Shown here: piece after piece, positions 12,378-25,423 of the stretch | How the letters are laid out: each line of letters opens with the position of its first letter | Position numbering within the stretch: position 1 is the stretch's first letter | NCBI RefSeq assembly: GCF_000422885.1 | Contig: NZ_AUGX01000001.1 | Location: forward strand, 373,238-437,237 | DNA length: 64,000 nt | DNA from: Ottowia thiooxydans DSM 14619 | GTDB taxonomy: Bacteria > Pseudomonadota > Gammaproteobacteria > Burkholderiales > Burkholderiaceae_C | Reading direction: 5' to 3' | Translations under genes and position numbers: made by a program | Notes under the pieces: generated by a model | Database searches by the model: none | The model's input: the letters and a program-made list of their open reading frames with translations, nothing else | What the model was told of the DNA's origin: nothing

Positions 12378-12719
12378 ATGGTCACTTTCACCCCCCTGCC
12401 CCGCCTTGGCGCCTTGTTGCCTTGGGCCTTGGCAATTTTTTCGGGAGCAGTTTCTGCACAAGCTCCAGCAGAAGCCGAAGCTTCCAAGCCTGCACCGTTG
12501 ACGGCACTGCGGTATTCGTCCCCCATTCAAGCTTATCAAGCCTATGTGGATCAACCCCTGCAGTCCTGGCGCGAAGCCAATGACCGCGTAGGCCAAATTG
12601 GCGGCTGGCGTGCCTATGCCAAGGAAATCGCTTCAGACGAAACCACAACAGCCAAGGATTCTGCTCCCACCTCCGGTAGCCATCCGCATGCTGGCCATCA
12701 CGGGGGGCATAGGCCATGA
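12378..12719 (+). CDS. Small exported His-rich protein of the copper operon
   Basis: A 113-residue protein with a signal peptide (residues 1-24, ending SGAVSAQA). A conserved-looking middle contains AYVDQPLQSWREANDRVGQIGGWRAYA. The tail is His-rich, HPHAGHHGGHRP, and plausibly binds metal. Small proteins with an IGGWRAYA segment are common at the head of copper operons with a TolC-like gene, but their function is not established. ATG 12378 follows AGAGG and begins the signal peptide; ATG 12315 would put charged residues before it. The stop overlaps the next start (ATGA). Confidence 0.78.
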   Translation: MVTFTPLPRLGALLPWALAIFSGAVSAQAPAEAEASKPAPLTALRYSSPIQAYQAYVDQPLQSWREANDRVGQIGGWRAYAKEIASDETTTAKDSAPTSGSHPHAGHHGGHRP

Positions 12720-14155
12720 TGGCTTTGGGTGCTATTCAGGCCAAATTGACTCTGTCAGCGCTGGTGCTGATATTGCTGGCCGGATGTGCCAGCGTTAACC
12801 CGGATCAGAACATCCGCCGCATCAACGACGAGGCTGCAAGCTTTACAGGGGGCAATCTCGCATTAGTCCGCACACAGCAGGAGCGAGACGAGCGTGCAAA
12901 GGCCGCGCAGACCTTGCTGGCTCAACCGTTGCAGCAGAAGGATGCTGTCCAGTTGGCATTGGTAAACAGTCCATCCCTGCAGACTCTCTTAGCACAGGGT
13001 TGGGCAGCATCGGCAAGTGCCGCGCAGGCCGGCCGAATTGGCAATCCCGTTTTCAGCTTTGAGCGCATGGCCTCCGGCGATGGGCTGGAGCTAGGGCGCG
13101 CTTTATCTATCGGCTTGCTGGATATCCTGACACTCCCCGCACGGCATAGCATCGCTATCCGGCGCATTGAGCAAGCGCAATTGCGCTTGACCAGTGACGT
13201 GGTGGACCAGATCACCCGGGTGCGCCAGGGATGGGTGCGAGCCGTGGCTGCGCAGCAAACGCTCAAATATGCCCAGCAGGTCTATGAGAGCGCGCAAGCG
13301 AGTGCAGAACTGGCTAAGCGCATGCAGGCTGTAGGCAACTTCAACCGGATGACACGCGCCCGCGAACAAGCGTTCTACGCGGATGCCGCCACCCGGCTCA
13401 GCACCGCGCAGCATCAGGCCACAGCCAGCCGCGAAGAACTCGTTCGATTGCTTGGTTTGGATGAGGCGCAGGAACAAGCACTCAAGCTGCCGGAGCGTTT
13501 GATGGATCTGCCCAAACAGCCACTGGCACCAGAGGCCGTAGCCACGCAAGCAACGCAATCCCGTCTGGACATCCGTCTGGCACAAGCCGCGTTGGATGAC
13601 GCTGCCAAAGCCCAAGGCCTGAACATGGTGACCAGTTTCACCGACATCGAACTGGAGGGGCGCCGCAACACCGGCTTTGATGGTGCTGAAGGTACACGCT
13701 CAACCGCACGCGGCTGGGAAATCTCGGTACGTTTGCCAATCTTCGACAGCGGCGCAATGCTGCGAGGCGCCATGAATGCTCAAACCCTGGCAGCGGCCAA
13801 CCTGCTTGAATCCACGATGCGTTCCGCCGGTTCCAACCTGCGTGAAAGCTACTCGGCGTATCGCTCAGCCTATGACGTGGCGCGCCACTACCGTGATGAA
13901 ATCGTGCCTCTGCGCAAGGTGATCTCTGAGGAAAACCAGCTTCGCTACAACGGCATGTTGATCAGCGTGTTCGAGCTATTGGCAGACGCCCGCGATCAGG
14001 TCAGCACCGTCACGGCGGCCATCGATGCACAGCAGCAATTCTGGCTGACCGATGCCGCCATACAGGCAGCCGTGATCGGGCGTCCCTCGAACCCCAACCT
14101 ACCCGTTACACCGTCCACCACATCCAGTGTGTCCAGCGGTGGCGCCGGTCATTGA
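12716..14155 (+). CDS. TolC-family outer-membrane lipoprotein
   Basis: A 479-residue outer-membrane channel protein of the TolC/OEP family, which forms the outer-membrane duct of tripartite efflux. A lipoprotein signal ends in LLAGCAS (lipid on Cys). Two long coiled-coil helical repeats follow; the second contains RGWEISVRLPIFDSGAMLRGA, as in other OEP proteins. It overlaps the preceding gene by 4 bp. No membrane-fusion or RND gene is adjacent, so its partner pump must be elsewhere or it works differently. Some copper operons carry such a CopB/TolC-like gene next to a multicopper oxidase. Confidence 0.87.
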   Translation: MMALGAIQAKLTLSALVLILLAGCASVNPDQNIRRINDEAASFTGGNLALVRTQQERDERAKAAQTLLAQPLQQKDAVQLALVNSPSLQTLLAQGWAASASAAQAGRIGNPVFSFERMASGDGLELGRALSIGLLDILTLPARHSIAIRRIEQAQLRLTSDVVDQITRVRQGWVRAVAAQQTLKYAQQVYESAQASAELAKRMQAVGNFNRMTRAREQAFYADAATRLSTAQHQATASREELVRLLGLDEAQEQALKLPERLMDLPKQPLAPEAVATQATQSRLDIRLAQAALDDAAKAQGLNMVTSFTDIELEGRRNTGFDGAEGTRSTARGWEISVRLPIFDSGAMLRGAMNAQTLAAANLLESTMRSAGSNLRESYSAYRSAYDVARHYRDEIVPLRKVISEENQLRYNGMLISVFELLADARDQVSTVTAAIDAQQQFWLTDAAIQAAVIGRPSNPNLPVTPSTTSSVSSGGAGH

Positions 14156-14171
14156 TGCAGAAACGATTTCC

Positions 14172-15584
14172 ATGACATCCAGAAGAGAGTTCTTCAAGTT
14201 CGCCGGTATAGCTGGTGGCGCTGTTGCAGTCAGCTCGGTCAGCCGGGTGGCTATGGCTGCACTGCCTGAGCCCATCACGCAAACCAGCCCGAACACCATG
14301 GCCCCACTGGTGCCTAGCTCTGGGCGCCCATATAACCCCGTGGTAACGCTTAACGGCTGGACCCTGCCCTGGCGTATGAACCAAGGTGTGAAGGAGTTTC
14401 ACCTCGTCGCCGAGCCGGTAGTACGCGAAATGGCCCAGGGCTTCAAGGCCCATCTTTGGGGTTACAACGGCCAGAGCCCTGGCCCCACGATCGAGGTGGT
14501 GGAGGGAGACCGCGTGCGCATTTTCGTCACCAACAAGTTACCCGAGCACACGAGCATCCACTGGCATGGTCAGCGCCTGCCCAACGGCATGGATGGCGTT
14601 TCGGGCCTCACGCAGCCCGCAATTCAGCCTGGCAAGACGTTTGTCTACGAGTTTGTGGCGCGCCGCCCTGGCACTTTCATGTACCACCCGCACGCTGACG
14701 AGATGGTGCAAATGGCTATGGGCATGATGGGTTTCTGGGTCACCCACCCAAAAGCCAAGCACCCTTTGATTGATGAGGTGCAGCGGGATTTCTGTTTTCT
14801 GCTCAGCGCCTATGACATCGAACCAGGGGCCGCTACACCCAAGGTGGCAGAGATGACGGATTTCAATCTATGGACATGGAACAGCCGGGTCTTCCCCGGC
14901 ATCGACTCTTTGAACGTGCGGCTTGATGACAAAGTTCGCATTCGTGTCGGCAATCTCACCATGACCAACCACCCGATGCACCTGCATGGGCACGAGTTCG
15001 TGGTGACTGGCACCGATGGCGGCCCCACACCCAAGAGCACTCGCTGGCATGAAGTCACCACGGATGTCGCTGTAGGTCAGATGCGCCAGCTTGAGTTCGT
15101 GGCTGATGAGGAAGGCGATTGGGCGTTCCACTGCCACAAGAGTCACCACACCATGAACGCCATGGGTCACGACGTCCCTACGCTCATTGGGGTGGATCAC
15201 ACCGGCCTTACCAAGAAAATCAATAAGCTCATTCCTGACTACATGGTGATGGGTGAGCGCGGTATGTCTGATATGGCTGAGATGGAAATGCCCATCCCGG
15301 ACAACACGGTACCCATGATGAGTGGCCAGGGGCCGTTCGGATCAGTAGAAATGGGCGGAATGTTCAGCGTGCTGAAGGTGCGCAGAGAGCAAAAACCCGG
15401 TGACTACACAGATCCTGGCTGGTTCAAGCATCCGGCTGGCACGGTGGCGTATGAGTACACCGGCCCGATCGCTGAGCCCGCACGCTTTAGCGCTGAAGGC
15501 GGGCAGTCCATGCAGCGCGCACACAAGCCGGCATCGCCCACAGAAGTCAGGGTACGAAAACCTGGCTCACATGGCGCGCATTGA
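14172..15584 (+). CDS. Multicopper oxidase (Tat-exported, copper tolerance)
   Basis: A 470-residue periplasmic copper oxidase. The Tat signal is SRREFFKFAGIAGG. All four copper-ligand motifs are present: HWHGQRLPNGMDG, GTFMYHPHADE, HPMHLHGHEF and HCHKSHHTMNAMGH, where the last holds the type 1 copper Cys, His and Met. Methionine-rich stretches near the C-terminus (MGERGMSDMAEMEMP, MMSGQG, MGGMFSV) resemble those of CueO/CopA that bind Cu(I). The family oxidises toxic Cu(I) to Cu(II). The start at 14172 places the twin Arg at residues 4-5. It begins 16 bp after the TolC-like gene. Confidence 0.93.
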   Translation: MTSRREFFKFAGIAGGAVAVSSVSRVAMAALPEPITQTSPNTMAPLVPSSGRPYNPVVTLNGWTLPWRMNQGVKEFHLVAEPVVREMAQGFKAHLWGYNGQSPGPTIEVVEGDRVRIFVTNKLPEHTSIHWHGQRLPNGMDGVSGLTQPAIQPGKTFVYEFVARRPGTFMYHPHADEMVQMAMGMMGFWVTHPKAKHPLIDEVQRDFCFLLSAYDIEPGAATPKVAEMTDFNLWTWNSRVFPGIDSLNVRLDDKVRIRVGNLTMTNHPMHLHGHEFVVTGTDGGPTPKSTRWHEVTTDVAVGQMRQLEFVADEEGDWAFHCHKSHHTMNAMGHDVPTLIGVDHTGLTKKINKLIPDYMVMGERGMSDMAEMEMPIPDNTVPMMSGQGPFGSVEMGGMFSVLKVRREQKPGDYTDPGWFKHPAGTVAYEYTGPIAEPARFSAEGGQSMQRAHKPASPTEVRVRKPGSHGAH

Positions 15585-15617
15585 TTTTTTTCATTCAATC
15601 TTCAACGAAAAAATCCC

Positions 15618-16115
15618 ATGAAATTCACACGATCCACCATTCCTCTGGCCCTTGCGATGGCCGTGCTGGCCGCATCCGGTGCCGCGTTGGCCAGCGGCAA
15701 TCACGGAGGCGGCCATGGTCATGGAGATAGCGGTGAAACAGCCATTGGCAAGCCTGGCGTTGCAGCCAATGCCAGCCGCACCATCACCATAGCCATGAGT
15801 GACAACATGCGTTTCACGCCATCAAGCATGCAGGTCAAACAAGGCGAAACCGTGCGTTTTATCGTCAAGAACACAGGGCAGGTCAAGCACGAACTCAGCC
15901 TGGGCACGCAAAAGGAATTGCTGGAGCATCTGGAGCAAATGAAGAAATTCCCTGACATGGAGCATGACGAACCCGGCAAGATCACGCTGCAGCCTGGCAA
16001 ACAAGGCGAGATCGTCTGGCAATTCACCAAGGCGGGAACCGTGGACTTCGCCTGCCTGATACCAGGCCACTATGAGGCGGGCATGAAAGGCGCTATCAAG
16101 GTGGGCCGCAAGTAG
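15618..16115 (+). CDS. Cupredoxin, CopI-like periplasmic copper protein
   Basis: A 165-residue exported blue-copper protein. A signal peptide (1-25) is followed by a His/Gly segment NHGGGHGHGDSG and a plastocyanin-like domain. Candidate type 1 ligands are His in VKHELSLG and Cys, His and Met in CLIPGHYEAGM. The layout of a His-rich N-terminus plus cupredoxin resembles CopI of Rubrivivax, which protects against copper in the periplasm. It lies 33 bp after the oxidase, as its probable redox partner or copper store. Confidence 0.88.
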   Translation: MKFTRSTIPLALAMAVLAASGAALASGNHGGGHGHGDSGETAIGKPGVAANASRTITIAMSDNMRFTPSSMQVKQGETVRFIVKNTGQVKHELSLGTQKELLEHLEQMKKFPDMEHDEPGKITLQPGKQGEIVWQFTKAGTVDFACLIPGHYEAGMKGAIKVGRK

Positions 16116-16192
16116 GGCTATGAAGCGCCATCAGATGTAAGCCAACCATCTCGGTGCGGAACACAAGCACCAGCCAATCAACGACAACCGCC

Positions 16193-16534
16193 ATGAAACC
16201 CATCCAACGTCTGCTCACTATTTCCGCACTGGCCATGGGCATCGCCCTGCCCATCGCTACCCACGCACAGGAAAATTCCAATTCAGGCCAAGCTACGGCG
16301 CCACCATCAGCATCGATGACCTACGGGGAGGTCAGAAGGATCCAGGCCGAAGAAGGCAAGATCACGCTCAAGCATGGGGAGATCAAGAACCTGGACATGC
16401 CCCCAATGACCATGGTCTTTACAGCCCGAGACAAAAAGCAGCTCACCACCCTCAAGCCCGGAGACAAAGTGCAATTCACAGTCATCCAGGAAGGTGGGAA
16501 GATGATCGTGACCGATATTCAGACCGCTCCTTGA
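16193..16534 (+). CDS. CusF-like periplasmic copper-binding protein
   Basis: A 113-residue protein with a signal peptide (1-25, ending ATHAQ) and a CusF OB-fold domain. Ligand region KHGEIKNLDMPPMTMVF keeps the His and both Met of the E. coli CusF Cu(I) site. Met stands where CusF has the capping Trp. Proteins with this DMPPMTM variant are common metallochaperones. Lacking a CusCBA pump next door, it may pass copper to the oxidase or simply buffer it. Confidence 0.88.
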   Translation: MKPIQRLLTISALAMGIALPIATHAQENSNSGQATAPPSASMTYGEVRRIQAEEGKITLKHGEIKNLDMPPMTMVFTARDKKQLTTLKPGDKVQFTVIQEGGKMIVTDIQTAP

Positions 16535-16619
16535 GATACGCCGCGAACGCTTTGAACGGAGTGTCCGATGAGCCGACGACGGACCTCCGTGTGAGATGCT
16601 TGAGATCAAGGAAGTTGCA

Positions 16620-17123
16620 ATGAAGATGAAGCCGCTAGCCCTGGGAGCCGCAGGTGTTCTGGCCTTGGTGCTAGCCGCGGGGGCGACCTATTTTTCCCTG
16701 AACGCCAGCAAGCAACAAGTCACGGCGTCGCTACACAGCCTGCGGCCCGATGACCCCCATGTGCTTCAAGTTGGCGCGAAGATCTACGCACAACAATGTG
16801 CGGCCTGCCATGGCGCCAAGGGCGAAGGCCAACCCAACTGGCGCGACCAGGGGCCCGATGGCCAGCTTCCGGCGCCCCCCCACGATCCCAGCGGGCACAC
16901 CTGGCACCATCCCGATGAGCAACTCTTCGCCATCACCAAGCATGGACTCGCCCAGTTGATCAAACAACCCGGCTACCGCACAGCAATGCCCATTTACAGC
17001 GGCATACTGAACGACGATGAAATAGTAGCCGTGCTGTCATGGATCAAGGCGCAATGGCCACCCGAAATACGCCGCAGTCACGATGAAATCAATGCCCAGT
17101 ACCGACAGTCCTTGTCACGCTGA
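16620..17123 (+). CDS. Membrane-anchored or exported cytochrome c
   Basis: A 167-residue single-haem cytochrome c. A hydrophobic N-terminal segment (residues 5-27) is followed by the haem motif QQCAACHGAKGEG, and TAMPIYSG supplies the axial Met. It is last in the copper operon and could accept electrons from the multicopper oxidase or cupredoxin, an inference from position. The start at ATG 16620 is preferred over 16596 because it begins the positively charged signal MKMKP. It overlaps the end of the convergent transglycosylase gene by 35 bp. Confidence 0.88.
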   Translation: MKMKPLALGAAGVLALVLAAGATYFSLNASKQQVTASLHSLRPDDPHVLQVGAKIYAQQCAACHGAKGEGQPNWRDQGPDGQLPAPPHDPSGHTWHHPDEQLFAITKHGLAQLIKQPGYRTAMPIYSGILNDDEIVAVLSWIKAQWPPEIRRSHDEINAQYRQSLSR

Positions 17124-18432
17124 CTTGGTCTTTTACTGACACGTTGAGTTGTGCAGAAGCGAGCACCCTCAGCTCCTGGGTCAGCATGCGTTGTTGGGGC
17201 CTTGACACTCCGCGAACCTGCTCAGCCACCCACAGCAACCGGCCCGCACTGGCATCGTGCGCGGGATTGCGCAATATGGCGGCCAGGGTAACGGATTGGC
17301 GCGCGTCGATCTGTTTGGCAGATACGCCGAAATAATGCCTCGCGGCTGCATCGGCGCCGCAAACCAGTTGGCCTTCTACCGTTTGGCCCCAGGGAGCCAG
17401 ATTCAGGTAGAGCTGAAGAATGCGCGCCTTGCCCAGGCTTTGCTCAATCTCGACGGCGTACAGCAGTTCACGCACTTTGCGTGTCAGCGTGCGTTCACCC
17501 CCCGCCACCATCAATTTAGCAACCTGCTGAGTCAAGGTGCTTCCACCGCGCCGGATGGTTGCGTTCCGCTCGTTGATCGCCAGCGAAGCCTGAAGCTCCT
17601 CCAGGTCGTAACCTGGGTGTTCGTAAAAGCGCTGGTCTTCAGCAGCCACTACCGCTCGCGCCAACCAACCACGCGCATCGAGCTTATGGCTAGGGCCACA
17701 AGACGAACGGGCGTGCGCCCAGGTTTCGGTGCCCAGGCCACTGACAGCCAGCCCCTGCACTTGCGGAGTCAGCTCAAACCTTCCTGAAGGCAATTGCACA
17801 CGGGCGGTGGCAGCCACATGACCTTCTATATGTGCCACGCGAAGCTCCGCAAGCCCCGGCGCCAACAAGGCCACCCAATGGCGTGCCGGCGCATCAGGCC
17901 ACCGCATCGTCACATCCCACCCTGGGCCATGACGGCGGGCCTGCCACTTCGCGCTCACAATGGCTCGCTCACCCTGCGGAGACTCAGAGGCGAGCAGCAG
18001 TTGGCCTTGCAGCCGGTCTACGCCCTCCCCACGGGACAAAGCGATCTGCGCTGCGGGCACCCTCAGCCGCTCCTGCCCCAATGCGGCCGGCACGGGAAAC
18101 GTACATGGCTCGCAGTGCAAGGTCAGCACCGGCTCCGGGCCTTCTACCCCGGCGGGCTTCCATCCCAAAGTGATGAAGCCAATGCGGCTAGGCACACGCA
18201 CCCCATCAAGCACCTGGCCAATCCACGGCGTGGTCGCCAGCCACACAAGCTGCGGCACGCTGGCCTCCATCTTGAGCGGGCCACGCCCTACCCTGACAGA
18301 CCACTCATCGGCCTTGGGCGCCAGCGCGATGCGCGCGGCGCCCCATAACATAGCCAGCAATGTTGCGGGGATCAACAGCGAGCAAATCAGAATCACGAGG
18401 AATCTGAATCGGGACTTTGTCGACTTGTTCAT
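17089..18432 (-). CDS. GT51 peptidoglycan glycosyltransferase, monofunctional
   Basis: A 447-residue membrane protein with an N-terminal anchor (about 9-32) and an unassigned periplasmic region of about 210 residues. The GT51 lysozyme-like domain spans about 245-410. Catalytic Glu is in AEDQRFYEHPGYD (about residue 264), with GGSTLTQQVAK and RKVRELLYAVEIEQ also present. There is no transpeptidase domain, so it would polymerise glycan strands only. It is longer than MtgA because of the N-terminal region, which may be a regulatory or targeting domain. The start overlaps the stop of the upstream small gene (ATGA), which puts it in the exosortase operon. Confidence 0.87.
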   Translation of the reverse strand: MNKSTKSRFRFLVILICSLLIPATLLAMLWGAARIALAPKADEWSVRVGRGPLKMEASVPQLVWLATTPWIGQVLDGVRVPSRIGFITLGWKPAGVEGPEPVLTLHCEPCTFPVPAALGQERLRVPAAQIALSRGEGVDRLQGQLLLASESPQGERAIVSAKWQARRHGPGWDVTMRWPDAPARHWVALLAPGLAELRVAHIEGHVAATARVQLPSGRFELTPQVQGLAVSGLGTETWAHARSSCGPSHKLDARGWLARAVVAAEDQRFYEHPGYDLEELQASLAINERNATIRRGGSTLTQQVAKLMVAGGERTLTRKVRELLYAVEIEQSLGKARILQLYLNLAPWGQTVEGQLVCGADAAARHYFGVSAKQIDARQSVTLAAILRNPAHDASAGRLLWVAEQVRGVSRPQQRMLTQELRVLASAQLNVSVKDQVSVTRTVGTGH

Positions 18433-19031
18433 ACAGCCCCCGCAGCCAGCGCACGCGTGACGGTGACCGCGCGCCACGGGCCTTTAGATTGCCCCATGGT
18501 GGCGGCCCAGTACCATGCCGAAGTATCTGCAAAGCGTTGACCATTGGCGTCTTCTATCTGCTCGCATACCCTCAGCGCAACGCCTTCCTTGCGAGCAATG
18601 AAGCAGCGCTGAAGGCCGCTGCCGAGAGATTCTTCCGAAACCATTGCCACCGTAGTCATCGCAGATTGAGCAGGCGTACTTTCCAGGTGCTCGCCTTCTA
18701 TGCGGTAACCCAGAGCACGGTAGCAATCCGCAGCGGGATGCAACATGCGCGTGGGGGCAGTGACATCTCTCAACACAATGATCTGACGCTCATCGGTCAA
18801 ACGCGTGATACGGCCGGGAAATCGATCGGCAAAGCGCCGCTCCACAGCAGACAAAGCCAGAGGCCGCACGATGGCCCCCTCCCACTGCTGCGGTACCTCC
18901 ACAGCCTGCATGGCAGGTGAAGGTACCACCTCACGGGCACTCGAGAATGCGCCTGCCAACGCACACGCCAGCATGGCGCAACCGAACATAACTTTGCCCA
19001 GCACCCGATTCTGAAAAGTGTTCTCTATCAT
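18429..19031 (-). CDS. Exosortase-operon exported protein (possibly EpsI-like)
   Basis: A 200-residue protein with an N-terminal hydrophobic segment (about 12-30). Its middle holds MLHPAADCYRALGY and the C-terminal half holds CFIARKEG, CEQIED and WYWAATMGQSKGPWRAV. The combination of HP..CYRA.GY and a W-rich end recalls the EpsI-type accessory proteins found next to exosortases. I infer that relation from context and weak motif similarity. It sits 19 bp after the exosortase gene and overlaps the transglycosylase gene by 4 bp. Confidence 0.7.
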   Translation of the reverse strand: MIENTFQNRVLGKVMFGCAMLACALAGAFSSAREVVPSPAMQAVEVPQQWEGAIVRPLALSAVERRFADRFPGRITRLTDERQIIVLRDVTAPTRMLHPAADCYRALGYRIEGEHLESTPAQSAMTTVAMVSEESLGSGLQRCFIARKEGVALRVCEQIEDANGQRFADTSAWYWAATMGQSKGPWRAVTVTRALAAGAV

Positions 19032-19050
19032 GCTGATCTCCTACGTTCGA

Positions 19051-19968
19051 TTAGCGGCTACCTGAAGGCCTTGGTTCGGCACTGACAGGCCGCCCCATCA
19101 ACAGAGCGATGGCACCACACGCCACCGCCAACGCCAATAATCCAATGCCCTGATGGACCATCTGAGAAGATGCATTTCCAGTGGCTTCCAGCGCGACCAA
19201 CGCGGTGTTGCGCAGCACATTGCCGGCTAACACCGTAAGGCCCACCAGCGGAAGGCGCAAAGCGAAGCCGCGGTTGCTTTGCCCTTTGAACAGCGCTACG
19301 GCGCACGCCGTAAAGTAACCCGCCCAGGCCATCTGCACACCGGAGCACGGCGCATCGACAATGACCAGACGCCCATCCACCAGCAGACTGCCGCCTTCGC
19401 GCTGCACAGAGAACGCCACGCTCAGCAACCAACGACTAGCCTCGGCGGTGAGCACGCGCAGCGGGTAACCCGCGTAGAACTGCAGCGAGGCAATGAGTGG
19501 CAGTGCCAACACCGCAAGCCCCAGCACAGGCACCGCAGCGACGATGTGGCGCGAGGCGGGCCAAAGCACGCCATTGCGGGCTTGCATGGCGCCGCGGCGC
19601 ACCGAGGGCATGAACGCCAGCAGTCCGCAGGCCCAGCTGGTGATCGCCAGCAAGCTGGTGGCCAGCGGGGTAACTTCCCCTCGCATGGAGGTAGCCGCCA
19701 ACGTACCCACCAAAGCCACTGCCATCCAGGACAGGCGTGGTGAAGAGCGCAACTGACCACGCACAGACCACAACAGTACTCCCAGTGCTGCAAGTGCCAA
19801 CAAACCCAGTGGATCGTCGGAGCCGTCCGCTACGCGTGCAATCATCCAGCGCCAGGTGGGCCAGAGCGCGGCAGCTTGCAGCCCAAGCCACACCCATGCT
19901 GGCGCGCGGTCAATACGCATGGCGTTGCGAAGAATGGGCGCGTGGCGCAGTAGAAGAGATGAGCTCAT
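19051..19968 (-). CDS. Exosortase (Xrt family transpeptidase)
   Basis: A 305-residue polytopic membrane protein with about eight hydrophobic segments. It carries the exosortase catalytic set: Cys in DAPCSGVQM (about residue 207), Arg in AGNVLRNTALV (about 252) and His in MVHQGIGL (about 271). Exosortases cut PEP-CTERM-type tails at the cytoplasmic membrane. The gene follows the VIT/VWA gene by 6 bp, and that protein ends in a PEP-CTERM signal, so it is the likely dedicated substrate. Subtype is not certain; several Xrt subtypes are known with a single neighbouring target. Confidence 0.9.
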   Translation of the reverse strand: MSSSLLLRHAPILRNAMRIDRAPAWVWLGLQAAALWPTWRWMIARVADGSDDPLGLLALAALGVLLWSVRGQLRSSPRLSWMAVALVGTLAATSMRGEVTPLATSLLAITSWACGLLAFMPSVRRGAMQARNGVLWPASRHIVAAVPVLGLAVLALPLIASLQFYAGYPLRVLTAEASRWLLSVAFSVQREGGSLLVDGRLVIVDAPCSGVQMAWAGYFTACAVALFKGQSNRGFALRLPLVGLTVLAGNVLRNTALVALEATGNASSQMVHQGIGLLALAVACGAIALLMGRPVSAEPRPSGSR

Positions 19969-19974
19969 GGCAGT

Positions 19975-22050
19975 TCAACCAGTGAACGCCCGGCGCTCAC
20001 GCCTGCGAGCCATCTGTGCGCCAAGCACCGCAAGTACTACCAGCATCGCTGCCCAGGTCTCAGGCTCAGGGGTGCTGCTGACATCAGCGCCCAGGGCACT
20101 GGCTTCGCCCACAGCCAGATCACTCACACCTTCGGGCATTGGGCTGGGCTGGTTCGCGGTGGCGCCTTGCCCGCCTGGATTGCGCACCACCTTGTCCACT
20201 GCGATGAAGCTGGTGTACTGGGTAAGCAGGTTGTAGTCCAAGCCCAGGCGGGTGATAGCCGCCTTTTGCGCGTCGCCGCCCGTCAAGGCTTCTTCATCGC
20301 TCAGGCCAGCAATGCGGTGGCGCGCCCAAAGGTAGCGCAGCGCGGTGGTGCTGCTGTCAATTCCTTGCAGATCGATAGGCAAAGTCTGCTGATACGCACC
20401 GCTGGCAGCGCGGCCTTCGATCAGCAACTTGGGGTTTGCCGATTTACTGGTCTCGCGCCACTTGCCGAACACGATGACGGGGCGCTCTGCCAATACGTCG
20501 GGCAAGACCTGGGGTTCCACGTCGTACACATCCAGGCCTTCAAAGCGTGCCTTCACACTGGTAAGCACAGGAGATTCAATCATGCGGCGAAAGCGTTCAG
20601 CCTGAGCCTTGGCTTCGCTCGGCTGGGTGACGATGAACGGCTCACCCATACCAGCGCGGGCCAAGCCTTCCATCAGGTGGCGGTTCACCGAAGATCCGAT
20701 GCCAAAGGCGAATACGTTGGCCTGCCCAAGTTGCTTGCGCACCAGTGCAAAGGCTTCGCTTTCCACGGTGACATAGCCATCCGTGACTACAACCACGGTG
20801 CGCGAAAGGTCAGCCGGCTTGGGTTCTGCGTAAACGCGGCGCAACGCCGGGAGCAACTCAGTCGACCCACCGCCGCCCATCTGCTCGATAGTCCGGATAG
20901 CCGCGTTGACATTCGCAGGGGTGGCCGGCACCGATTGCGGTGCCAGGAACCGGTTGCTGCCTGAAAACAGCAACACATTGAAGGTGTCACTGGCTTTCAG
21001 GTTGCCCAGGAGCTGGCGCATCAAGGCCTTGGTGGTGTCCAGTGGAAAGCCATGCATGGAACCAGAGATATCCACCACGAAGACATAGTCGCGCGGCGTG
21101 ATCGCTGCTTGCGGTACGGCCTTGGGCGGTTGCACCATGGCAATGAAGAAGTTCTCCTTTTCCCCCCTTTGCAGCAGCACGCCGGACTGAATTTGCGCGC
21201 CCGCCAGGCGGTAATCGAGAATGAAGTCGCGGTTATTGCTCTTGCTCACGCCGCGCGAGGCGCTGCCAGCCAGTTGCACGCTGGCGCGCTGCCCATTCAT
21301 CTCTGTGTCGATGGAGTGGCTGGGGGAGCGCACTTCCTGGATGCCAATAGGGCTTGCCAGGTTGACCTTGAGGTCGAAAGCGCTGGCGCTTGGCTGATTG
21401 CTGCGCAAGACCGCCTGGGCCGGAAAAGACTCCGCGACCGCGCTACCTGCAGCGCCTGCGTAACGTGGGCCTACCACGGTAGGAAAGACGAACTGATATT
21501 GCCCCTCTTCCGGGACGAGCAGCTCGTTGTAGCGCAGCTCCACCTGCACGTCATCGCCAGGCAGGATGTTGGCCACATTCATCTGAAACACATTGGGCCG
21601 ATGCTGTTCCAGCAAGGCTGCGGTCTTGCCCGCGCGTTTGGCCTCGTCGTATTCCACCCGAGCCTGTTGTTTCTCGCGGATCTGAGCGACCACCAGGCGA
21701 TCACCCACACGCACGTTCAAGCCGTTGACCGCAGCACGCGTGGAACCCGGGAAGATGTACTTCGCTTCAATAGGCGTCGTACCTTCGTTCTTATAGGTCT
21801 GAGTTACCACCACGTCGGCGATCACACCGCTGATGTTCACTTTGACATCTGTGCGCTTGAGCGGTAGCGCCTCTACACCGGCTTGCGCGCCCTGGACAAA
21901 GAAGTACGGGCTTTCAGCCTTGGCCGGTGCGTCCGTCGAAGCACGAGCGGACGGCGCCAAGAGCACAAAGGCCGTCAGTGCCAAATGCCAGGTGAGCCGC
22001 TGGGCCAAAACGACGGAGGCGGACTTAACAATGAGTGCGGCAGTGCGCAT
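19975..22050 (-). CDS. VIT and VWA domain protein with PEP-CTERM sorting tail
   Basis: A 691-residue exported protein. In order: a signal peptide (about 1-38); a VIT domain (about 50-175, with EAKYIFPGSTRAAV); a linker; a von Willebrand A domain whose metal site reads DISGSM (about residue 326); and a C-terminal domain. It ends with a PEP-CTERM signal, PEPETWAAML, then a hydrophobic helix and RRRERR. VIT/VWA proteins resemble the inter-alpha-trypsin inhibitor heavy chain and usually mediate surface adhesion or complex assembly. The neighbouring exosortase should remove the tail. This is the first gene of a four-gene leftward operon. Confidence 0.92.
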   Translation of the reverse strand: MRTAALIVKSASVVLAQRLTWHLALTAFVLLAPSARASTDAPAKAESPYFFVQGAQAGVEALPLKRTDVKVNISGVIADVVVTQTYKNEGTTPIEAKYIFPGSTRAAVNGLNVRVGDRLVVAQIREKQQARVEYDEAKRAGKTAALLEQHRPNVFQMNVANILPGDDVQVELRYNELLVPEEGQYQFVFPTVVGPRYAGAAGSAVAESFPAQAVLRSNQPSASAFDLKVNLASPIGIQEVRSPSHSIDTEMNGQRASVQLAGSASRGVSKSNNRDFILDYRLAGAQIQSGVLLQRGEKENFFIAMVQPPKAVPQAAITPRDYVFVVDISGSMHGFPLDTTKALMRQLLGNLKASDTFNVLLFSGSNRFLAPQSVPATPANVNAAIRTIEQMGGGGSTELLPALRRVYAEPKPADLSRTVVVVTDGYVTVESEAFALVRKQLGQANVFAFGIGSSVNRHLMEGLARAGMGEPFIVTQPSEAKAQAERFRRMIESPVLTSVKARFEGLDVYDVEPQVLPDVLAERPVIVFGKWRETSKSANPKLLIEGRAASGAYQQTLPIDLQGIDSSTTALRYLWARHRIAGLSDEEALTGGDAQKAAITRLGLDYNLLTQYTSFIAVDKVVRNPGGQGATANQPSPMPEGVSDLAVGEASALGADVSSTPEPETWAAMLVVLAVLGAQMARRRERRAFTG

Positions 22051-22298
22051 GGGGTCTTCCTTTCAGTAGTGAGCTTCTATGTCCGCTACTGTGCAAATCG
22101 GCTTCGAAGGAGCTATGAAGCCTGCGAGAAGACGCCAGGAAAATTGCGCAAGGTTTGGGCGCTGTGTGAAGTCTGTGTGAAGTCTGGGTGAAAGCGAGCG
22201 GGGATTGCTTTACTCCCTTTCCCGCTCGCGGGAGAGCCTGATGCAAGCGCGCTTGCCGACTTGAGCCCCAGAACCCGAGGCTGCGAGCTGGTTTTACC

Positions 22299-23135: not shown

Positions 23136-24605
23136 TCAGACCTTCATCAACGGCAGCCGCAACACCGCCAGCGCCCCCGGAGTATCCCCAGCATTCCCAA
23201 GCGCAATACTCCCCTGATGCAGCGTAGCAATCTCCCGCACAAACGCCAGCCCCAACCCCGTACTGCGCTTCCCCGAACCAGGCCGCGCCAGCGAAAAGAA
23301 CTTCTCGAACACCTTGCCTTCAGCGAAGACAGGCACACCCGGCCCGTGATCACGCACATCAATTCGCGCCATCCGACCTTCACGCGCCAGAGTGAGCAAG
23401 ATGTCAGGTTCAGAGCCCCCGGAAGGCGTCGAGAACCCCACCGCGTTGTCCAGCAGGTTGCCAATCGCACGGCGCAGCAAGAACGGATCCCCCTCCACCA
23501 CCAGCTCCGCATCAATACGCACCTCAATTCGCAGTGCCGGCGCCTGATGGCGCGCACCACCCGCCAGCTCATGCAGTAGCGGCGCCAAATCTACTGGCTG
23601 CTGGTCTTGGAGCAACCGGCGGCTCTCCAGTGCGGTGAGCTCCATCATGCGGTCCACCACTTCTTGCAAGCGGTGGGTCTCGCGCGCAATATTGGCGGTG
23701 AATCGCTGCCGCTGCTCGGGCGGCATGCCGGGCTCTTGCAGCAGCTCTGCAGCGCCACGAATGGCAGAGATAGGACTTTTCAGCTCGTGCGTGAGCTGCT
23801 CCACATACTCTTGCACATAGTTGCGCCCGGCAATAGCGTCTCGCACCTCCTGCGCTGCTGCGCGCGTTTGCGCACGCACGGCACGCCAGGCCCGGCGTGG
23901 GCTGAAATGGCGTCTGCCCTCAGGGTCACGCCACCACGCCGTGCGCAGCGCCGCCAGCAGATCGCTGGTAATGCCTAGTGGGCGAATCAGCAGGAAGGAT
24001 AAAACGCAAGCCAGCAGCAACACCGAAAAGGCCGAGGCCACGCCCACCGAGATGATGTTGCCCCGCGCCGCAGAGACAAACTGCTCCAGGCTCTGCACCG
24101 GCTTGCCGATGACCACAGCACCTACGATCTCACCCTCCCATCGGATAGGTGCGCCCACATACATCACACTGCTGTGCGGGTCCTGCGGCACATCACGCGT
24201 AGTGCGAGAACCATATTCACCGCGCAGGGTGTAGCTCACGTCTCGCCAGGTTGAATAATCCTTGCCGAAGTCTCGCCCAGTGGAGTCATACACCACGATG
24301 CCGTGGCGATTGGTCACGTAGGCGCGCAAGTCCACGCGGGTCTTGTGCAAGCTGTAAACCTGGGCCGAGAAGCGTCTGGCGTATAAATCCCGGAAAATGC
24401 CGGCGATGCGATCTGCAGGCAACGCGCCCTGCTCTACATCCTGCTCAATCACGGTCGCCAGCAGCTGCGCGGTCTCCACGAGCCCCTCCTCGGCCGATTC
24501 CCGGTACCGAGGATCCAGATCACCCAACAGTTGGTAGAGCAGCGCCGCCATACCGATGGCGTAGACCACCACCAGCGCAAGGAAAATTCGGGTTCGACGG
24601 CTCAC
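23136..24605 (-). CDS. creC: Sensor histidine kinase CreC
   Basis: A 489-residue kinase. It has a transmembrane helix at about 7-27, an extracytoplasmic sensor (about 28-185) with YVTNRHGIVVYDS, and a second helix at about 187-210. A HAMP-like linker follows, then the phospho-acceptor QLTHELKSPISAIRG and an ATPase domain with NLLDNAVGFS and STGLGLAFV. The N-terminal sensor follows the E. coli CreC pattern (a Cache-like fold). CreBC responds to carbon-source and cell-wall stress signals in other bacteria. The start overlaps the creB stop by 4 bp. Confidence 0.9.
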   Translation of the reverse strand: MSRRTRIFLALVVVYAIGMAALLYQLLGDLDPRYRESAEEGLVETAQLLATVIEQDVEQGALPADRIAGIFRDLYARRFSAQVYSLHKTRVDLRAYVTNRHGIVVYDSTGRDFGKDYSTWRDVSYTLRGEYGSRTTRDVPQDPHSSVMYVGAPIRWEGEIVGAVVIGKPVQSLEQFVSAARGNIISVGVASAFSVLLLACVLSFLLIRPLGITSDLLAALRTAWWRDPEGRRHFSPRRAWRAVRAQTRAAAQEVRDAIAGRNYVQEYVEQLTHELKSPISAIRGAAELLQEPGMPPEQRQRFTANIARETHRLQEVVDRMMELTALESRRLLQDQQPVDLAPLLHELAGGARHQAPALRIEVRIDAELVVEGDPFLLRRAIGNLLDNAVGFSTPSGGSEPDILLTLAREGRMARIDVRDHGPGVPVFAEGKVFEKFFSLARPGSGKRSTGLGLAFVREIATLHQGSIALGNAGDTPGALAVLRLPLMKV

Positions 24606-25423
24606 TTCAGCGCATATCCGATGCCGCGAAGGGTGCGGATGGGATCTTCGTCATCGCGCACTGATCGCAGCTTGGCGCGCAAGGTCTTGATGTGCGCGTC
24701 CACGGTGCGATCGAAACTCTCACCCGGGTCATCCCACACGCGTTCCAGCAATTCATTGCGTGTGAACACGCGGCCAGGCCGTTGCATCAGCGCAGCCAGC
24801 AGTCCGTATTCGTAGCGAGACAGGTTCAGAGCTTCGCCGTGGTAATGGATCAAACGGCACTCTTCGTCCAGCATGAAAGCGCCAGTGGGTGCTGCGCCGT
24901 CCATCCGGATCGGCGCGGAGCCATCCGCTCCGGTCGCCGGAGTGTCTTCAGTCTTGACGACGGGCACTGTCTGAGGGGCAGGCGCTGGAATTGAGTCTGA
25001 ATTTGAAGAAATGCGCTGGCTGCGGCGCAAGATCGTGCGTACTCGCGCCACCAGTTCACGCGGTGAGAACGGCTTGGCAATGTAGTCATCCGCGCCCAGC
25101 TCCAACCCCACCACCCGGTCAATCTCGCTCGCGCGTGCAGTAAGAAAAAGCATGGGCACTGCCTTGCCACCCGGCAATTCCTGCAGGCGGCGCAGCAGTT
25201 CGAAGCCATTCATGTCTGGAAGGCCGACATCCAGAATCGCCAGCGCGGGTGGCCGTTCGGCAAAGCGCTCCATGGCTTGGCGCGCGCTCACGCAGACTTC
25301 GGGTAAGAAGCCGTCAGACGACAGCGCATAGTGGATGGTCTCGGCAATACCGGGTTCGTCTTCCACCACCAGAATCAAGGGCAACTCACCATGCATGCGG
25401 AGCGATTCTAGGCTCAATGTCAT
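24602..25423 (-). CDS. creB: Response regulator CreB
   Basis: A 273-residue OmpR-family regulator. The receiver has VVEDEPGIAETI, phospho-acceptor Asp in AILDVGLPDMNG and Lys in YIAKPFSP. The DNA-binding domain includes LSRYEYGLLAALMQRPGRV and VDAHIKTLRAKLR, typical of CreB. Between the domains is an unusually long linker of about 45 residues rich in Pro, Ala, Ser and Thr, which makes the protein longer than E. coli CreB (229 residues). An in-frame ATG nine codons into the frame (MHGELPLILVV) is a possible alternative start. No creD is found nearby. Confidence 0.9.
   Translation of the reverse strand: MTLSLESLRMHGELPLILVVEDEPGIAETIHYALSSDGFLPEVCVSARQAMERFAERPPALAILDVGLPDMNGFELLRRLQELPGGKAVPMLFLTARASEIDRVVGLELGADDYIAKPFSPRELVARVRTILRRSQRISSNSDSIPAPAPQTVPVVKTEDTPATGADGSAPIRMDGAAPTGAFMLDEECRLIHYHGEALNLSRYEYGLLAALMQRPGRVFTRNELLERVWDDPGESFDRTVDAHIKTLRAKLRSVRDDEDPIRTLRGIGYALK

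Follow-up and report, generated by a model that had tools for sequence, protein, structure and literature searches.

In 2011, proteins that combine a VIT domain with a VWA domain were described as one family that uses three different sorting signals and a dedicated sorting enzyme (PMC3237569). In the proteobacterial dedicated sortase system (TIGR03784/03785/03787/03788), that enzyme is an LPXTG sortase unrelated to the exosortases. The PEP-CTERM/EpsH (XrtA) systems, in contrast to the operon described here, have many substrates, exopolysaccharide genes, and PrsK/PrsR; like it, they combine the PEP-CTERM tail with an EpsI protein adjoining or fused to the exosortase (PMC1569441). In a 64,000-nucleotide stretch of the Ottowia thiooxydans DSM 14619 genome (contig NZ_AUGX01000001.1, positions 373,238 to 437,237 of the forward strand; the whole stretch is called the window below), we found a minus-strand operon coding for a VIT/VWA protein, exosortase Q (XrtQ), a small EpsI-like exported protein, and a peptidoglycan glycosyltransferase of the GT51 family. 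We consider it probable that this is a dedicated and probably one-substrate XrtQ system, controlled by CreBC, to which the GT51 is an accessory; this suggests a display system connected with the cell wall and not with the making of slime. So compact a system, in which a single enzyme goes with one evident substrate, one EpsI-like partner, one candidate enzyme of the wall, and an inducer that can be predicted, makes it directly testable to what acceptor bacterial exosortases attach their substrates.

The four open reading frames (ORFs) were verified among the window ORFs, and, as the first-pass annotation of this DNA had described them, they nearly touch: the gaps are 6 bp and 19 bp, followed by a 4-bp ATGA overlap between the stop codon of the EpsI-like gene and the ATG of the GT51 gene. 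We took this ATG as the GT51 start; the listed GTG at 18477 would give 15 amino acids (aa) more. A rightward ORF overlaps the 3' end of the GT51 gene by 35 bp, which places the end of the operon there. Directly upstream on the same strand lie creC (23136..24605), coding for a sensor histidine kinase (NF008312, 505 bits against a cutoff of 356), and creB (24602..25423), coding for a response regulator (NF008296, 303 bits against a cutoff of 273). Together with a tandem cre/blr tag before the VIT/VWA gene, creB-creC is part of the same unit, a regulatory side that the first-pass annotation had overlooked. For comparison, 142 XrtQ relatives were collected from a scan of species genomes; 80 loci were kept, and their ORFs were searched with the window proteins.

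The first gene (19975..22050) codes for the presumed substrate, a 691-aa protein with a signal-like N terminus, a VIT domain (PF08487, 123 bits, over cutoff), matches over cutoff to VWA families, and a C-terminal PEP-CTERM tail. Its TIGR03788 score of 415 bits, below the equivalog cutoff of 552, makes it a relative rather than a member of the marine proteobacterial sortase target family. The D, S, and S of the metal ion-dependent adhesion site (DxSxS) are kept in 78 of 79 aligned relatives, the remaining one having a gap, and the PEP tripeptide is invariant in all 79, one of which (L035) has a tail that reads differently downstream of it. The sorting signal occupies residues 659-684 (19999..20076, minus strand) and consists of the PEP motif, a hydrophobic stretch, and an Arg-rich tail. 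TIGR02595 scores it at 18.4 bits in the genome search, above the cutoff of 16, and at 13.8 bits, below it, in hmmscan; PF07589 gives 17.5 bits, below its cutoff of 20.7. On direct reading of the sequence, the motif, the transmembrane (TM) helix, and the basic tail are all evident. The genome holds a second PEP-CTERM match over cutoff (L083; G000:C2:48308), at the end of an ORF with Ig-like repeats, with a hydrophobic stretch and an Arg tail and without PEP, which was not counted as a substrate; two weaker matches are both below cutoff. Because of the L083 tail, we regard it only as likely that the XrtQ system has a single substrate. Although the genome has just one exosortase match, the L083 ORF may code for another sorted protein.

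The adjacent gene (19051..19968) codes for the 305-aa exosortase, which matches the exosortase Q model of NCBIfam well over its curated cutoff (NF012182, 398 bits against 270) and shares the catalytic Cys/Arg/His with that family. Cys208, Arg253, and His272 are invariant in all 81 aligned sequences. XrtQ is the sole PF09721 match in the host genome, and by analogy it would cleave and transfer the PEP-CTERM protein. The third gene (18429..19031) codes for a 200-aa exported protein with one N-terminal helix that matches the C-terminal half of the exosortase T (XrtT) model NF033770 (36 bits). No EpsI family model among NCBIfam or Pfam matched it at E values up to 1, and its AlphaFold2 model, with a predicted local distance difference test score (pLDDT) of 86, had no fold match among solved structures at an E value of 0.001 or better. 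In 7 of the 80 loci XrtQ and this protein form a single ORF, and because of these fusions, which recall an earlier description of EpsI lying next to EpsH-type enzymes or joined to them (PMC1569441), the EpsI-like protein is predicted to be a functional partner of XrtQ. Among the open-license papers listed by literature searches, none was found that names XrtQ as an exosortase, and none that links exosortases with either CreBC or a GT51; a Dechloromonas paper among them deals with lytic transglycosylases, as far as its accessible text goes.

The last gene (17089..18432) codes for a 447-aa protein comprising a TM helix, an N-terminal domain (N-domain), and a GT51 domain (PF00912, 142 bits, over cutoff), with no transpeptidase domain. 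In its GT51 domain, its single TM helix, and the lack of a transpeptidase, it resembles the monofunctional GT51 MtgA, but it has about 220 aa more between the TM helix and the GT51 domain. Its TIGR02070 score of 134 bits, below the cutoff of 183, indicates that it is no MtgA equivalog; the host genome has three further GT51 ORFs, including a separate 252-aa one of MtgA size. In 72 of 73 aligned rows the pair of catalytic glutamates is intact; the remaining row, L003, ends at its contig edge. Three of four conserved cysteines are likewise found in 72 of the 73 rows (L003 is cut by the contig), and the first cysteine of a CxPC pair is found in 72 of 73, with a glycine in L044. The protein is predicted to polymerize lipid II. 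The N-domain (17677..18333, minus strand) is predicted to be periplasmic and carries the CxPC pair, both cysteines of which are invariant in an alignment of 40 members. In the AlphaFold2 model (pLDDT 91.4) the N-domain is confidently predicted and the GT51 half matches solved GT51 structures; a search of Protein Data Bank folds gave no convincing match covering the N-domain, and none of the 40 members has a Pfam family over cutoff in it. This agrees with the first-pass annotation, which had called the long N-terminal region uncharacterized. As to a possible AsmA/YhdP origin of the N-domain, the Pfam YhdP model matched 2 of the 40 members weakly (best E value, 0.085), and hhalign of the N-domain against 15 YhdP proteins gave a probability of 9.3%, not far above the reversed controls at 2.6% and 3.6%. 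A 426-aa YhdP-like ORF in genome G400 turned out not to be a GT51. The operon defines a GT51 architecture whose N-domain has no family assignment.

Among the 80 XrtQ loci, the VIT/VWA gene is present in 78, the EpsI-like gene in 79, and the GT51 gene in 72; the two loci lacking the first and the one lacking the second end there at a contig edge. Where more than 2.5 kb of sequence is available downstream of XrtQ, the GT51 gene follows in 68 of 73 loci, being absent from L004, L048, L058, L069, and L078. The four-gene order is thus conserved widely in the XrtQ clade, as opposed to the GT51 gene being absent beside most homologous exosortase/VIT genes. The gene order is retained at GT51 identities to the window copy as low as 36%, and XrtQ and GT51 distances are correlated (Spearman 0.87; 67 sequences, window included). 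As an independent sample, 399 Burkholderiales genomes were searched with a profile of the GT51 N-domain and with the XrtQ model; the XrtQ clade was taken as the genomes scoring more than 100 bits with the latter (9 of the 15 matching genomes), and the other six, all below 25 bits, were excluded. The N-domain profile matched only 8 of the 399 genomes: 6 of the 9 XrtQ-clade genomes versus 2 of the 390 others (Fisher P = 4e-10, uncorrected for phylogeny). Genomes G560 and G752, which belong to two further Burkholderiales families, retain the complete order of VIT/VWA, XrtQ, EpsI-like, and GT51 genes; in G752, the second and third of these are fused.

Two overlapping exact cre/blr tags, formed by three TTCAC elements with 6-base spacing (TTCAC-N6-TTCAC-N6-TTCAC; 22166..22192, minus strand), lie roughly 115 bp ahead of the VIT/VWA start and are the sole ones in the window. 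TTCAC-N6-TTCAC is the binding site of CreB/BlrA (PMC4689548, PMC3660660), and in Aeromonas and Pseudomonas the CreBC/BlrAB system answers peptidoglycan stress, namely the loss of PBP4 (PMC4689548, PMC3660660, PMC2654508). With regulator genes over cutoff and an exact tag, the locus resembles the described CreBC/BlrAB regulon, although the sorting operon is not among the members named in the accessible parts of these three papers. Of the 74 loci in which more than 400 bp precede the VIT/VWA gene, 71 have an exact tag in the 600 bp ahead of it (70 of 74 by script alone); the L074 tag is 131 bp from the start that the alignment indicates, and L035, L058, and L076 have forms with one mismatch. The 80 loci, 1.37 Mb in all, contain 76 tags, all upstream of the VIT/VWA gene (with the L074 start taken from the alignment), versus 1 match to the reversed pattern, and comparison of loci indicates that the tag has been kept although much of the flanking sequence has diverged. 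Where 5.5 kb or more of upstream sequence is available, creC lies there on the same strand in 57 of 69 loci. In the Burkholderiales sample, all nine XrtQ-clade genomes (a count made within this clade) have a CreC over cutoff, and eight of the nine, from four families, have the tag at the locus, with an additional ORF between the tag and the VIT/VWA gene in G752. These observations point to a predicted CreB site and its regulator, and we infer that the operon is under CreB control, likely as an addition of protein-display genes to the CreBC regulon. Because the tag persists in loci that lack the GT51 gene, the predicted site is part of the sorting core rather than of the GT51. Separately, the Variovorax locus L023 has a PBP1A-family gene (L023:2752-5205) in the space from creC to the VIT/VWA gene, in antisense orientation, and an antisense GT51 match occurs in 57 of the 69 loci with enough upstream sequence.

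As controls, we examined VIT/VWA loci outside the XrtQ clade: of 274 genomes from the class, 44 have a TIGR03788 match, and 20 of the 52 listed matches, picked so as to include both subcutoff and canonical ones, were read in context over 7.6 to 19.5 kb each, some ending at contig edges. None of the 20 has an exact cre tag and none has an N-domain GT51; another GT51 gene is nearby in 1, and CreB/CreC-like regulators are present in 8. Read by eye, the C-terminal tails of several control proteins look LPXTG-like or rich in glycine, and some of these proteins have a sortase-sized gene downstream. The proteobacterial dedicated sortase system thus has the same broad VIT/VWA substrate, one dedicated enzyme, and often CreBC-like regulators nearby, whereas the cre tag and the N-domain GT51 are absent from the 20 loci read. 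A second comparison is offered by the XrtT locus of one genome (G262, L166; NF033770), which has a VIT/VWA protein, an exosortase with a fused EpsI-like domain, and CreB/CreC-like regulators; unlike the XrtQ operon, it has neither a GT51 nor an exact cre tag in 19.5 kb, and its regulators are below the CreB and CreC cutoffs. Its gene content indicates that VIT/VWA sorting beside CreB/CreC-like regulators recurs outside XrtQ. XrtT was discarded as a broad relative, since 66 of 398 genomes match its model and just 1 does so over cutoff. Taken with the 2011 report (PMC3237569), the control loci show that a VIT/VWA protein with a predicted dedicated sorting enzyme is not new; it is the GT51 and the putative CreB site that distinguish the XrtQ branch.

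On the basis of this arrangement, we propose that CreC, which in other bacteria senses peptidoglycan or metabolic stress, would activate CreB, which in turn would bind the tandem tag and presumably turn the operon on. The VIT/VWA protein would then be exported, with the helix of the recognizable PEP-CTERM motif holding it in the inner membrane. Together with the EpsI-like protein, which would be a subunit or a cofactor, XrtQ would cut at PEP through its cysteine and hand the new C terminus to an acceptor; the catalytic residues for this step are observed, the partner is suggested by the fusions, and the reaction is assumed by analogy. Concurrently, the GT51, which retains its catalytic residues, may polymerize lipid II into glycan strands, either mending the wall at the display site or preparing it for an adhesin-like protein.

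A number of observations weigh against this reading. The predicted control by CreB rests on sequence, and CreBC of Escherichia coli responds to metabolic signals rather than to wall damage (PMC4689548). The exact tag matches 48 times in the host genome, versus 9 for the reversed control, with 32 of the 48 belonging to one repeat and 2 to the operon. Of the other 14, the ORFs near 9, read by eye, include no clear second regulon member. The 80 loci are not independent, as 49 of them are titled Variovorax. In 19 kb read around each, two genomes with XrtQ-type enzymes (G651 and G146) have no exact tag, and three of the nine XrtQ-clade genomes (G651, G421, and G461) have no GT51. Tags are present without a GT51 in L048, L069, and L078 and in the f111 genomes G421 and G461, so that regulation alone is no argument for a partnership with the GT51. 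Finally, the N-domain GT51 architecture occurs in G681 and G708 without XrtQ and without a CreC over cutoff; these genomes carry 1 and 3 other exosortases, none of them XrtQ, on other contigs or more than 1 Mb from the GT51 gene. All eight genomes with the N-domain GT51 have some exosortase, a count made over those eight only. Some XrtQ genes and the XrtT locus have no such GT51 beside them, and two genomes have it without XrtQ; judged by this distribution, the GT51 is an accessory that part of the XrtQ clade has gained or retained and is not obligate for sorting.

The first-pass annotation had proposed that display of the VIT/VWA protein is coupled to local cell-wall synthesis. The link to the cell wall has become stronger than it held, since the operon carries a conserved CreB site; the GT51 as a necessary partner has to be given up, as it is lacking in 5 of 73 loci, 3 of 9 genomes, and the XrtT locus. 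Local wall synthesis and physical coupling at the display site would be a further step, which we only infer. The GT51 might instead be a polymerase for general wall repair, induced by stress from the same CreB promoter as the sorting genes but without functional contact with them, an alternative that we regard as doubtful but deserving of serious weight. It would account for the XrtQ lineages that lack the GT51, for the tag remaining with the sorting genes in them, and for the GT51 architecture of G681 and G708, distant from any exosortase gene; it sits poorly with the persistence of the GT51 downstream in 68 of 73 loci and in three families and with the near confinement of the N-domain GT51 to XrtQ genomes in the sample. 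More ambitiously, XrtQ could attach the VIT/VWA protein either to lipid II or to a nascent glycan strand, and the dedicated GT51 could polymerize the tagged precursor, as a sortase and transglycosylase do in Gram-positive bacteria. Coinheritance of the GT51 with XrtQ and its substrate, the CreB tag at the operon, and the presence of other exosortases in the XrtQ-less genomes with the N-domain GT51 are consistent with such anchoring. Lipid II is the acceptor of sortases (PMC1569441), and VIT/VWA relatives apparently use true sortases in other Gammaproteobacteria, as judged from their tails and PMC3237569. The GT51 is, however, missing at several XrtQ loci and at the XrtT locus, which implies that transfer needs no GT51 and weakens the case for nascent peptidoglycan as the anchor. 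According to PMC11980579, exosortase-type enzymes leave their substrates membrane anchored, and the 20 control loci, seemingly including sortase systems, have no N-domain GT51 and only the one other GT51. We therefore rate this mode of anchoring as improbable, and we would be surprised if a CreBC-switched Gram-negative exosortase with a lipid II or nascent glycan acceptor proved to be the nonhomologous counterpart of the Gram-positive sortase pathway.

It is very hard to credit that the whole arrangement is a fortuitous adjacency, retained through close kinship and accompanied by a chance CreB-like repeat. The preponderance of one genus among the loci (49/80) would favor this, but the order holds at GT51 identities down to 36% and, with tags, in other families; the 76 tags against a single reversed-pattern match and the unchanged tag amid diverged flanks also speak against chance. 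We accordingly continue to favor a dedicated, CreBC-controlled XrtQ system with an accessory GT51.

Some further observations concern the surroundings of these genes. In the host genome, the repeat that makes up 32 of the 48 tag matches is TTCACACTAAATTCAC (e.g., C1:468496-468774, C9:81258-81521, and C13:90455-90703), which in several cases occurs as opposed pairs about 130 to 260 bp apart, resembles a small palindromic mobile element, and mimics the cre tag. In G421 and G461 (L192 and L193), the substrate slot before the XrtQ-like enzyme holds a divergent multihelix VIT-like protein with a PEP-CTERM tail, the likely substrate, behind a cre tag. The N-domain GT51 genes of G681 and G708 (L161 and L162), judging from the starts of the neighboring ORFs, lie near an apparent mpl ligase gene and a TonB-like gene. 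In the window, the plus-strand ORFs adjoining the operon (12716-17123) resemble, as read from the ORF list, an outer-membrane efflux protein, a multicopper oxidase, cupredoxin-like and copper-binding proteins, and a c-type cytochrome, and they probably form a copper resistance cluster.

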